DNA of 64,000 bases from Turicibacter sanguinis (GTDB taxonomy: Bacteria; Bacillota_I; Bacilli_A; MOL361; Turicibacteraceae): positions 589,501-653,500 of the forward strand of contig NZ_CP053187.1 in the NCBI RefSeq assembly GCF_013046825.1. Direction: 5' to 3'. The position numbers and the translations under genes are program-made. The notes beneath the pieces are model-generated. The model made no database searches, was not told the origin of the DNA, and saw only the letters and a list, made by a program, of their open reading frames with translations. Shown here piece by piece: positions 10,408-55,636 of this stretch (positions within the stretch are counted from its first letter, which is position 1; each line of letters begins with the position of its first letter).

Positions 10408-10518
10408 CCATTCTATACATTACTTACTCTATCATCATAATTAAAGATAGTATTCTCTCTTTGCTAATAATAACTAAGAGAACATTTGATTTATTTCATC
10501 TTAAGCAAGGTTCACCCC

Positions 10519-11262
10519 CGCCCACTAGCGGAGGAAAGCTAAGAGCTCTCTTCGCTCGCTTTCATCTTAAACGAGGTTCAATCTCTTACTTTATATCTCC
10601 CCAGTGGTTGAGGAAATCTAGCTTCGCTAGCCTGGGTCCCCCCGCCCACTAGCGGAGGAAAGCTAAGAGCTCTCTTCGCTCGCTTTCATCTTAAACGAGG
10701 TTCAATCTCTTACTTTATATCTCCCCAGTGGTTGAGGAAATCTAGCTTCGCTAGCCTGGGTCCCCCCGCCCACTAGCGGAGGAAAGCTAAGAGCTCTCTT
10801 CGCTCGCTTTCATCTTAAACGAGGTTCAATCTCTTACTTTATATCTCCCCAGTGGTTGAGGAAATCTAGCTTCGCTAGCCTGGGTCCCCTCGCCCACTAG
10901 CAGAGGAAAGCTAAGAGCTCTCTTCGCTCGCTTTCATCTTAAACGAGGTTCAATCTCTTACTTTATATCTCCCCAGTGATTGAGGAAATCTAGCTTCGCT
11001 AGCCTGGGTCCCCCCGCCCACTAGCAGAGGAAAGCTAAGAGCTCTCTTCGCTCGCTTTCATCTTAAACGAGGTTCAATCTCTTACTTTATATCTCCCCAG
11101 TGATTGAGGAAATCTAGCTTCGCTAGCCTGGGTCCCCCCGCCCACTAGCGGAGGAAAGCTAAGAGCTCTCTTCGCTCGCTTTCATCTTAAACGAGGTTCA
11201 ATCTCTTACTTTATATCTCCCCAGTGATTGAGGAAATCTAGCTTCGCTAGCCTGGGTCCCCC
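10519..11262. repeat. Six tandem copies of a 124-bp unit
   Basis: The motif CCCACTAGC starts at 10521, 10645, 10769, 10893, 11017 and 11141, exactly 124 bp apart; the last copy ends one base before the prmC stop codon. Copies are almost identical. They differ at a G/A in GTGGTTG (copies 1-3) versus GTGATTG (copies 4-6), and AGCGGAGG versus AGCAGAGG (copies 4, 5). Each unit has a CTAGC-TTC-GCTAG hairpin, a GAGC-TCTCTTC-GCTC hairpin and a C run. A partial copy of the unit precedes the array (about 10497-10518). Open frames across it are by-products of the repeat. Confidence 0.95.
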
Positions 11263-12114
11263 CTACTTATTTATAATAATTGTCATACGGTCTTTTCCGT
11301 TTAGGTCTTTTAATGTTTCAAATTCTGCATTTGGGAAGTGTTGTTTCACAAGTTCAGCCATGGCTTCTTTGTGATTATAAGCATGCTCAAATGCAATAAT
11401 ATTTTTCTCATTTACCACTTTATGAGCATCTTTTAAAATTTGACGATAGAATTTTAATCCATCTTCTCCACCAAATAAAGCTAAGTGTGGTTCATTATCT
11501 TTCACAAGTGGATCCACATCTTCAGTTAATGGAATATATGGAGGATTTGAAACTAAAATATCAAACTTTAATCCACGTTCAATTAAAGGTTGTAACATAT
11601 CCCCTTGATAGAACGTCACATTAGCTCCTAAATTAGCAGCATTTTTCTTTGCCACTTCTAAAGCTGCCTCAGAAAGCTCAGTTACTGTCACTTCCATATT
11701 TGGCTCTTCAACCGCTAAAGTAACACCAATTGCACCACTACCTGTTCCAACATCAACGAGTTTAACTGCTGCCCCATCAAACACATCATCATATGTTGAT
11801 AAAACATTAGCTACTAACTCTTCCGTTTCAAAACGAGGAATTAATACGTCATCATTTACGATAAATTTATGACCAAAGAACGTTTCATAGCCCATAATGT
11901 GTTGCACAGGGATATTTTGCTCCACATACGTTTTAACACTACGTTCAAATTCTTCAACTTGTTCTTGTGGCACTTCCATATTCATATCAGCTAAAATTTC
12001 GTAACTCTCTTTCCCAGTTACATGCATTAATAATAATTTAACAGCTGAATCTTCTTTTCCATTTTCAAGGGCATAATCTTCAGCCCACTTTAACAATTCG
12101 CGCATTGTTTTCAT
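11263..12114 (-). CDS. prmC: Peptide chain release factor glutamine methyltransferase
   Basis: SAM-dependent methylation of the GGQ glutamine of release factors. Start at ATG 12114 (MKTMRELLKWAEDYA), six bases after GGTG; an in-frame GTG lies at 12123. 283 residues: N-terminal helical release-factor-binding domain, the SAM loop VDVGTGSGAIGV and the catalytic motif VSNPPYIP. Its substrate gene prfA is the next minus-strand gene upstream, but two small RNA genes separate the two, so prmC has its own promoter here. Confidence 0.95.
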   Translation of the reverse strand: MKTMRELLKWAEDYALENGKEDSAVKLLLMHVTGKESYEILADMNMEVPQEQVEEFERSVKTYVEQNIPVQHIMGYETFFGHKFIVNDDVLIPRFETEELVANVLSTYDDVFDGAAVKLVDVGTGSGAIGVTLAVEEPNMEVTVTELSEAALEVAKKNAANLGANVTFYQGDMLQPLIERGLKFDILVSNPPYIPLTEDVDPLVKDNEPHLALFGGEDGLKFYRQILKDAHKVVNEKNIIAFEHAYNHKEAMAELVKQHFPNAEFETLKDLNGKDRMTIIINK

Positions 12115-19603: not shown

Positions 19604-19632
19604 TTGCTCATGCAAAAAAGATGCTCTAGAAT
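19604..19632 (+). promoter_or_regulatory. Possible promoter of the G-free RNA locus
   Basis: TTGCTC (19604-19609), 17 bases, TAGAAT (19627-19632). Eleven bases later comes a 9-bp hairpin TGTGATAAG/CTTATCACA (19643-19682), so a transcript starting near 19639 would carry a 5' hairpin, as the two C-rich small RNAs do. Confidence 0.45.
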
Positions 19633-20113
19633 AAACTATTATTGTGATAAGGAGTTAGAAAACAAGAAAACAACTTATCACACCACTAGAATAGCAATCA
19701 TCGAAGCACTACACTAATTCTTATAACAATAGCCATCAGCAAAATATTTGATGCACCCTATCAACTCGAATCTTAATATTAAGCCTAGTGATTTATTGAT
19801 GAAGAACAAAGTGTCGCTAGTACCTCAAATAATTTTATTAACAAATATATTCCTATCCATTACTTAACTTTAAGTGCGACATCTTACTAATTACTTAACC
19901 TCCATCCATTCCAAACCCTATATCCTTTCATTCAAAAAATTCCTTTAACATCTTTCCTTTCAACTAAACTACAGTCTTTTAAAAACTATCGCGCTTAGTT
20001 CTCATCAACCTTCAATATTCTAAAAGTTTGTCTCATTGCACTATAGTTTCACTAAACTCATTCATATCAAATTATCAACTCCACACTATTTATTCATATA
20101 CATTCTTAACCTC

Positions 20114-20810
20114 CATCCACTACACCATTTTAAGCACCATTTAATTTCCAATCATCACACCACCCTTCATTACTCACTCACACTCCACCTATTCATCATC
20201 CCAAACTCCTAGTATCACATCCATTACATCTAATACCTTTCATTCTAATATCCTTTCAAATTCCATCCTTCATACAAATCCCACTACACACCATCCACTA
20301 CATTTTTTTAAGCACCATTTAATTTTCAATCATCACACCACCATTAATTAATCGCATCCCCCCTATACATCCACTAAGCTCCTAGTATCACATCCACTAC
20401 ATCTAATACCTTTCATTCTAATACCCTTTCAAATTCCATCCTTCATACAAATCCCACTACACACCATCCACTACATTTTTTTAAGCACCATTTAATTTTC
20501 AATCATCACACCACCATTAATTAATCGCATCCCCCCTATACATCCACTAAGCTCCTAGTATTACCTCCACTACATCTAATACCTTTCATTCTAACATCTT
20601 TTAAAATTCCATCCTTCATACAAATCCCACTACACACCATCCACTACATTTTTTTAAGCACCATTTAATTTTCAATCATCACACCACTATTGATTACTCA
20701 CATCCCACCTATACATCCACTAAGCTCCTAGTATTACCTCCACTACATCTAATACCTTTCATTCTAACATCTTTTAAAATTCCATCCACTATATCATCCC
20801 ATTCACTAAC
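20114..20810. repeat. 173-bp tandem repeats inside the G-depleted locus
   Basis: The motif TAATACCTTTCATTCTAA starts at 20231, 20404, 20577 and 20750, exactly 173 bp apart. Copies carry CCACTACA, TTAAGCACCATTTAATTT, AATCATCACACCAC, CTCCTAGTAT and AAATTCCATCC in the same order; the first is most diverged, the middle two nearly identical. Confidence 0.93.
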
Positions 20811-21583
20811 ATCCTTTTAACATCATTATAAATTTGTCCCAACTCATTTATCACTACTTCCTAAACTAACTTTGATAGATCCTCCAATACACATCCCCAA
20901 ACATTAAAATAACTATTCTAAAAAAATCCCATCATTGCAGTAAAACACCTACCAAAAAATAGCTTCCATCTCCTAACATCATCCATCCATTCATCCAACA
21001 AAAAAATTGCTTACTAGTCCTAATCCATCTACCAATCATCAAAACAACATAGTCCTATTAATAAAAACATTACACAAAAAGAATTCCATCATATTCATCA
21101 TAACGTCAAAACAAGCATCGACCCATTCGAAACAACTATTTTAAACTCAACTTTACCACTCACAATAACTCCGTAGCATTAAATCTAACATCATCTAACT
21201 AACACATTGCAACATTCAAAAAAAACTCTTTATATCTACACATCATTCTAAAACTACCACCATCTAATAAATACATTCTAAACATAATCATACTCCAAAC
21301 GTACCACTAACCCTACTACTTCAACTACACCCTTTCACTCCAATCGCTCAGTTATAAATGTATAAAAAAACACTCTCTCCTTTCATCCTAACGGTCATCC
21401 TATTCCACACATATTGATTCAAGCTTTTAGATTAATTTTTTAAAAATAAACCTTCTTCTTACTATTTACCTACACATCCTAACCTAACTTAAATAATAAG
21501 AAGATCCCTTTATCAAAACATTATTCCACGTAATATTCCTACACCTATCATCCCTATATTTCACTTAATAACTAACATTTTTC

Positions 21584-21632
21584 TAATAATAGATAAGGCT
21601 CCCTTTATAGGGAGTCTTTATTATTTATTTTT
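21584..21632 (+). terminator. Terminator closing the G-depleted locus
   Basis: CTCCC (21599-21603), loop TTTATA, GGGAG (21610-21614), extended by AATAATA/TATTATT arms, then a T-rich tail. Confidence 0.7.
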
Positions 21633-21719: not shown

Positions 21720-21884
21720 ATGTCAGAGAAAAAATATAATCCATTAAGTTTATTAAGCGATGCTCACTTATGTGAAGATATGAGTTGCTGTACAGACACT
21801 TACTTATTAGATCGTTCAACGATGAAATATGAACCAATCCAAGAAGTAGCAAATAAAGAAACAGAAAAAGAAGAAGAAAAATAA
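21720..21884 (+). CDS. Small Cys-containing acidic-tailed protein, 54 aa, unknown
   Basis: ATG at 21720 lies seven bases after AGGAGGG, and a strong terminator follows directly, so this is very likely a real gene. The product starts MSEKKYNPLSLLSDAHLCED, continues with a Cys-Cys pair (C18, C23, C24) and DTYLLDRSTMKYEPI, and ends in a K/E-rich tail. No signal peptide or membrane segment. The three cysteines could bind metal or be modified as in a peptide precursor; I recognise no family and no maturation enzyme nearby. Confidence 0.75.
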   Translation: MSEKKYNPLSLLSDAHLCEDMSCCTDTYLLDRSTMKYEPIQEVANKETEKEEEK

Positions 21885-21984: not shown

Positions 21985-22233
21985 CACTTAATACAGATGC
22001 ACTCTTTTAATATCACCTTTGGTTATGCCTCGACTATTAATTGTTATGTCCCGCTAACTTTCACTCTGTGAAACAAGCTGGGCTAACAATAACTCCGCTA
22101 ACCCGAATTTCATTTAATACAGACATCTTCTTTCAATATGGGTTCGGCTTACGCCTCACCTATCATCCGCGGAATCGCCTCTCTTCGCTCGGCATATAGA
22201 TGAACTAACGCGATAAAATCGCGAGTTCATCTA
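21985..22233. repeat. Hairpin-rich segment with an imperfect duplication
   Basis: TTAATACAGA followed by TCTTT-AATAT and TTA-GCCTC recurs at about 21988 and 22109. Hairpins include TTTCAC/GTGAAA (about 22058-22072) inside TTGTTA/TAACAA, and GATGAACT-CGCGAT/ATCGCG-AGTTCATC (about 22200-22232). The 13-mer CTCTCTTCGCTCG occurs here and in the 124-bp repeats at 10.5-11.2 kb. No ORF seen. Confidence 0.5.
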
Positions 22234-55507: not shown

Positions 55508-55539
55508 AAAAAAAAACGGCTCCACAAAAAAGGCAGCCG
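55508..55539 (-). terminator. Riboswitch-controlled intrinsic terminator
   Basis: Minus-strand CGGCTGCC (55539-55532) pairs with AGCCG (55521-55517) plus inner GG, followed by nine T (55516-55508). Its 5' arm uses the same bases as the aptamer P1 3' strand CCGGCT (55540-55535), so ligand-bound P1 excludes the terminator. Confidence 0.88.
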
Positions 55540-55604
55540 GTTGTACCAATAACTCCATATGTCCCAGGTACCCAAATACAGGACATATTTCAACATTTCC
55601 AACT
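55535..55604 (-). promoter_or_regulatory. c-di-GMP-II riboswitch aptamer
   Basis: Read on the minus strand: P1 5' strand AGTTGG (55604-55599), GGAAA, P2 ATATGTCC (55587-55580) pairing with GGACATAT after the loop TGTATTTGGGTACC, then GGAGTTA, GGTAC (pseudoknot with GTACC of the P2 loop), AACCG and P1 3' strand CCGGCT. This matches the Clostridium acetobutylicum class II aptamer block for block (GGAAA, TTGGG-AC, GAGTTA, GT-C, AACCG). Genes behind it are the pilus operon. Expected ON switch. Confidence 0.88.
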
Positions 55605-55607
55605 AAA

Positions 55608-55636
55608 ATAATATCATCTTTTCAAAAAAACATCAA
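55608..55636 (-). promoter_or_regulatory. Promoter of the pilus operon
   Basis: Minus-strand TTGATG (55636-55631), 17 bases, TATTAT (55613-55608). The transcript would begin at or inside the riboswitch P1 helix. Confidence 0.82.

Follow-up and report, generated by a model that had tools for sequence, protein, structure and literature searches.

Between yybS and rpsR, the genomes of five Turicibacter species carry a nearly G-free locus which, judging from its conserved architecture, very probably encodes a structured noncoding RNA with G-free loops. A role of this RNA as a binding platform or sponge is put forward tentatively, and the combined statement, that the locus encodes a G-free-loop RNA acting as a binding platform, is given a probability of roughly 0.5. 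Across the genomes compared, the locus, its architecture, its predicted pairing and its exclusion of G are conserved, and its loops are low in predicted structure; we infer that it is transcribed, from the plus strand, and that it has a function. The window, i.e. the whole 64-kb stretch of DNA analysed, corresponds to G000:C1:589501-653500 of a closed 3.0-Mb genome, and the features of the locus within it are listed in Table 1.

Table 1. Features of the yybS-rpsR locus (positions in the window).
Feature	Position	Strand	Remarks
Promoter-like sequence TTGCTC, 17-nt spacer, TAGAAT	19604-19632	+	Read from sequence
Putative transcript start (approximate)	19637-19642	+	About 5-9 nt past the -10-like hexamer
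P1, 5' hairpin, TGTGATAAG / CTTATCACA	19643-19682	+	Compensatory change at 3/9 pairs
P2, candidate second helix, CACTAG / CTAGTG	19684-19790	+	Weak in the window; L038 and L039 have stronger ones
P3, candidate third helix, TTAAGTGCGA / TCGCGCTTAG	19870-19998	+	Encloses conserved loop motif AACCTCCATCC
P4 5' strand, TCTAAAAGTTTG	20019-20030	+	Pair probability 0.997
Giant loop, 1389 nt, 40 G (2.9%)	20031-21419	+	Closed by P4
173-bp tandem repeat, 3.9 copies	20113-20787	+	Within the giant loop
P4 3' strand, CAAGCTTTTAGA	21420-21431	+	Pairs with 20019-20030 (12 bp); closes the G-less body
P5 hairpin, TCTTCTTA / TAAGAAGA, continuing beyond one mismatch	21454-21504	+	Comes after P4 in three species
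Intrinsic terminator	21595-21632	+	Also placed at 21595-21618

Gene neighbourhood and base composition of the locus

The genes run in the order rpsF-ssb-rpsR, a 54-codon plus-strand open reading frame (ORF), the G-poor locus and then, on the minus strand, yybS, a gene for a DHH-type phosphoesterase, rplI and dnaB. With yybS as the search handle, the locus was found in four further species, giving a comparison set of five Turicibacter genomes, one per species, with four complete copies. In all five, the element separates yybS from the small ORF/rpsR (the contig of G002 ends within it), whereas in a sister-genus genome yybS directly adjoins rpsR and the element is absent; the earlier remark that the locus breaks a gene order that is tight in other Firmicutes stands for Turicibacter as set against this sister genus. 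No ORF of at least 60 aa was found in 19604-21632, as the sequence-only reading had stated, and a protein-coding gene was ruled out by this and by repeat periods (173, 79 and 168 nt) that are not all multiples of three. A mobile element or invertible DNA was likewise ruled out, as the element occurs in a single copy in its own genome and at the same locus in all the species.

The 54-codon plus-strand ORF (21720-21884; SDAHLTEDMSCCTDTYLLDRSTMK) is kept in three relatives with 71-85% identity, has no Pfam match and, in every complete contig, lies next to the G-less locus. Elsewhere in the window, a 124-bp unit is repeated six times at 99% identity, with many short inverted repeats (10515-11263), and one of its words, TCTTCGCTCG, is found again in the gap preceding rpsR, at 22182; a Cyclic di-GMP-II riboswitch on the minus strand (55526-55609) scored over the Rfam gathering score.

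The interval 19604-21632 holds 92 G in 2029 nt, and 19850-21590 consists of 3.1% G, 29.5% C, 34.9% A and 32.5% T. The best-scoring G-poor segment of the 64-kb window (19821-21591; about 3% G and 30% C) reached a log-odds score of 131.6, against 17.5 for the runner-up, and is the sole such place in the 3.0-Mb genome; in ten other stretches of the same genome the top G-poor segments spanned only 115-180 nt, lay mostly at gene starts and scored up to 17. A genome-wide scan of both strands for 180-nt segments with at most three G yielded 190 forward matches, all of them (190/190) inside the locus, and seven on the reverse strand. Under the same criterion, 865/868 and 362/362 forward matches fell at the same yybS-rpsR locus in two relatives, and 0/75 in G004, where the locus is less extreme. 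In other Bacilli, the matches had the look of AT-rich noise and in most genomes occurred on both strands; those that were strand-asymmetric, in G218 and G156, were rich in T/A instead of C. The papers that were searched contained neither a G-less bacterial RNA nor a survey of Turicibacter RNAs.

These data make it extremely improbable that the locus is a product of mutational skew or a functionless relic. The whole window does have a negative GC skew in the same direction as the locus, but strand skew is no explanation, because all 190 extreme segments of the genome lie in this one locus and the adjoining same-strand gap between the 54-codon ORF and rpsR contains 13-16% G in four species; furthermore, the loss of G is matched by a gain of C, and the helices described below covary. 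Two of the checks proposed along with the sequence-only reading, the genome-wide composition and the same interval in relatives, agree with its description of a nearly G-free 2-kb locus for which skew alone is insufficient; its view is supported as regards a noncoding, transcription-unit-like locus that is conserved in relatives, is under selection for G exclusion and is not accounted for by skew.

G exclusion is conserved in Turicibacter, with 1.9-5.0% G in the loops across species. The loop sequences, on the other hand, align between species barely above shuffles, and the tandem repeats they carry bear no relation to one another (173 bp x 3.9, 168 bp x 3.7, 79 bp x 15.4, and none in L038, which has 4.9% G). 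In the copies compared, composition is thus conserved while body sequence and repeats turn over. A tandem repeat with a 174-bp spacing and at least six copies, a period near that of the 173-bp repeat in the window, was also observed at G003:C1:2210327-2211212.

Conserved ends and helices

A promoter-like 5' end, the P1 hairpin, the P4 helix and a 3' intrinsic terminator are common to the species. The promoter-like sequence (TTGCTC/TTACTT -17- YTGAAT/TAGAAT) occupies the same place in all five, being a weak sigma-A consensus match that the promoter scan did not call, and TATTATTG at the putative transcript start is invariant in them. A covariance model built from the other four species found the copy in the window (E=3e-4) as the only hit in its own genome; each Turicibacter genome yielded a single strong hit, and the other genomes yielded no hit. 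L038, L039 and L040 have predicted terminators of unrelated sequence in the corresponding position (z -5 to -8), and each of the four complete copies ends in a strong one (4/4). Both boundaries first noticed in the letters of the window, the promoter-like sequence with its 5' hairpin and the plus-strand terminator, are accordingly recovered, the former as conserved across species. P2 and P5 are not present in every species (P5 has 13-bp counterparts in L038 and L039 and is absent in L040). The helices of L038 lie nearly edge to edge (in transcript coordinates, P1 7-41, P2 43-101, P3 104-293, P4 295-1410, P5 1419-1544 and terminator 1581-1607).

P4 spans 1.1-1.4 kb, pairing the last part of the 5' domain with a segment that lies 83-201 nt short of the 3' end, and its strands are ATCTGAATATTTGAA/TTCAAATATTCAGAT in L038 and TAGAATATTTAAT/ATTAAATATTCTA in L040, in addition to those given for the window in Table 1. 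It is the top 5'-3' helix in each species, its score being matched by 0, 0, 0 and 1 per 100 random bodies, and it shows compensatory change at 7/15 pairs across four species; its probability under unconstrained full-length folding was 0.997-1.0 in each of the four complete copies. When P1 and P4 were aligned together, 92.7% of the cells were paired, compared with 26-45% when the alignment was slid, although this alignment was registered by hand and registered helix alignments lean towards structure. Compensatory double changes were present at 10/24 of these pairs, a level reached by 0/500 shuffles.

Unguided RNAalifold recovered P1 and the long-range helix P3. The predicted probability of P3 was >0.97 in L038, L039 and L040, but it was missing from the predicted fold of the window, whose own P3 is uncertain; taken alone, its covariation was reached by 23/500 shuffles, which is suggestive of conservation by compensatory change.

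The helices are kept through compensatory and G-U changes, as in a structured RNA, and the wobble count favours the plus strand modestly. The same evidence bears on a DNA-level or opposite-strand element (an R-loop former, a replication or segregation site, or a C-free minus-strand RNA), which is very improbable. The minus strand is G-rich, as was pointed out when a C-free, G-rich RNA or an R-loop was suggested for it from the sequence, and the terminators of L038, L039 and L040 also have minus-strand T-runs; however, the promoter-like sequence, the 5' position of P1 and the terminator all match the plus strand, and that suggestion is disfavoured. Taken together, the conserved promoter-like end, P1, P4, the terminator, the covariation and the folding of P4 make it most likely that the locus encodes a noncoding RNA.

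A second G-poor noncoding RNA candidate adjoins a leucine tRNA gene in four Turicibacter species (G004 L054:1336-1775; L065-L068). In this candidate, a 12-bp helix (ATTGAGGATACC/GGTATCCTCAGT) closes a loop of 93-97 nt with 0-2 G and GACAGTA/TACTGTC closes one of 164-243 nt with 2-8 G, with a conserved GTCGATTAAGGACAGTAG between the two helices; one compensatory C-G to G-C change was seen, in L066. It had no Rfam match and was not detected in the genome of the window. By its predicted architecture, it is a shorter second member of the same design.

Predicted open loops, known RNA classes and possible partners

The predicted folding energy of the loops was -1 to -5 kcal/mol per 150 nt, versus -31 in neighbouring genes and -17 on the antisense strand; only 12-33% of the RNA is paired, and its bulk is one G-free loop. 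Changing half of the C to G raised the folding energy two- to fivefold, with P4 lost in 24/32 folds and kept in 8/32, whereas random loops of genome composition were two to four times more structured but kept P4 in 26/32 folds. Because these genome-composition loops mostly retain P4, keeping the loop single-stranded is favoured over keeping P4 closed as the role of G exclusion, and the idea that P4 closure requires it found partial support. Selection for a structure weaker than the composition implies was rejected, since only L040 fell below its shuffles, and the window and L038 were slightly stronger. The expectation of a long, unfolded G-less RNA therefore fits the loops, although not the chain of helices that closes them. 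Two words, CATCC and CTAAC, are enriched over expectation across species, and GG occurs 0-3 times per loop; C at 30% exceeds the prediction from G loss, which suggests C-containing sites.

CsrB/RsmZ and CrcZ are long-lived protein-titrating sponges in which a single RNA carries many repeats of a single-stranded element, and the proposed Turicibacter platform is like them in this arrangement; CsrB, however, uses GGA. A CsrB-type sponge was rejected, as repeated GGA was not found (0-3 GG per loop), and the giant loop is specific to the genus. FsrA, RsaE/RoxS and LhrC, which are C-rich Firmicute small RNAs of about 100 nt with short seeds, share unpaired C-rich, G-poor elements with the Turicibacter RNA, but the latter is >1 kb and its anti-Shine-Dalgarno words are not enriched. 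No covariance-model match to the locus in the window was found at gathering score in Rfam 15 (including GOLLD, ROOL, OLE and raiA), the best sub-threshold hits being only at the terminator. GOLLD, ROOL and OLE (PMC12286853) are, as is the Turicibacter RNA, large noncoding bacterial RNAs with covariation-supported long-range helices. They are compact and heavily paired, unlike the mostly single-looped Turicibacter RNA.

Among Firmicute small RNAs, C-rich seeds complementary to Shine-Dalgarno sequences are common, which counts in favour of a base-pairing decoy. In such a decoy, the C-rich loops would bind G-rich RNAs, for instance Shine-Dalgarno regions, and G would be excluded against self-pairing. 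CCTCC does lie inside the conserved P3 loop of most species, but neither CTCC nor CCTCC was consistently enriched in the bodies of four species (CTCC observed/expected 16/12.8, 9/7.2, 8/11.2 and 2/16.5; depleted in L040) and the enriched CATCC is not anti-Shine-Dalgarno, so that such a decoy is unlikely. An anti-Shine-Dalgarno sponge over the whole body was rejected on these counts; of the sequence-only suggestion of a sponge for SD-like RNA, the CCTCC in the conserved loop is what speaks for it, and its support is weak.

The locus also has the composition preferred by Rho, i.e. C-rich and G-poor RNA, and its loops resemble the unstructured rut sites. Nevertheless, no Rho RNA-binding domain was detected in 13 genomes (five Turicibacter and eight other relatives), whereas the search did recover controls such as B. 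subtilis, and an intrinsic terminator stands at the 3' end of the RNA; the probability that it is a Rho decoy, one giant Rho loading site, is negligible.

G exclusion might instead serve mainly stability, by removing the sites of RNase Y (after G) and EndoA (UACAUA) and leaving the loop as an inert spacer or part of a very stable RNA. RNase Y is encoded in all five Turicibacter genomes (5/5) and its S. aureus counterpart cleaves mostly after G (PMC4608709), UACAUA was observed twice versus about 11 expected over the four bodies, and hairpins stand at both ends of the RNA. This explanation is nonetheless decidedly unlikely, as it leaves the rise of C to about 30% unexplained, two species (L039 and L040) do not avoid the residual G/A dinucleotide that RNase Y favours, and a 2025 study of B. 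subtilis found the -1 G dispensable at the tested RNase Y sites (PMC11780869). As for protein partners, cold-shock-domain proteins number 3-6 per genome and nothing links them to the yybS-rpsR RNA.

A proposed platform of G-free loops

In the preferred explanation, a plus-strand noncoding RNA of about 1.6-2.0 kb would begin just past the promoter-like sequence, with P1 folding at its extreme 5' end, and P2, P3, P4 and P5 would form a row of adjoining helices, each closing a G-poor single-stranded loop. P4 would close the largest of these (1.1-1.4 kb) and the intrinsic terminator would end the RNA. The loops would stay open because without G neither G-C nor G-U pairs can form, and the end hairpins, together with the scarcity of sites for a G-preferring RNase Y, would protect the RNA and make it long-lived. 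Its repeated C-rich elements (CATCC and CTAAC) would then hold a protein that binds single-stranded RNA, or some other partner, the RNA being a multivalent platform that displays repeated C-rich single-stranded sites. The absence of Rho may permit the completion of so long an untranslated, C-rich transcript.

We lean slightly towards a broader proposal, in which the exclusion of one nucleotide would be the design principle of a new RNA class with at least two Turicibacter members (the yybS-rpsR RNA and the tRNA-Leu-linked RNA), whose helices would hold open kilobase-sized loops, single-stranded for lack of G and maintained by selection while loop sequence and repeats turn over completely, and which would serve as a multivalent platform or condensate scaffold. 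It looks like a new class of RNA, with giant G-free loops held by paired stems, whose role would probably be to offer a long unfolded strand to a binding partner. Since the usual homology and covariance searches would miss a composition kept without sequence, long single-stranded RNAs of this kind could form a hidden class in bacteria. If natural RNAs stay open through the loss of G, questions of RNA stability (the choice of sites by RNase Y), of Firmicute proteins that bind single-stranded RNA and of unstructured RNA scaffolds would become directly testable in a common gut commensal.
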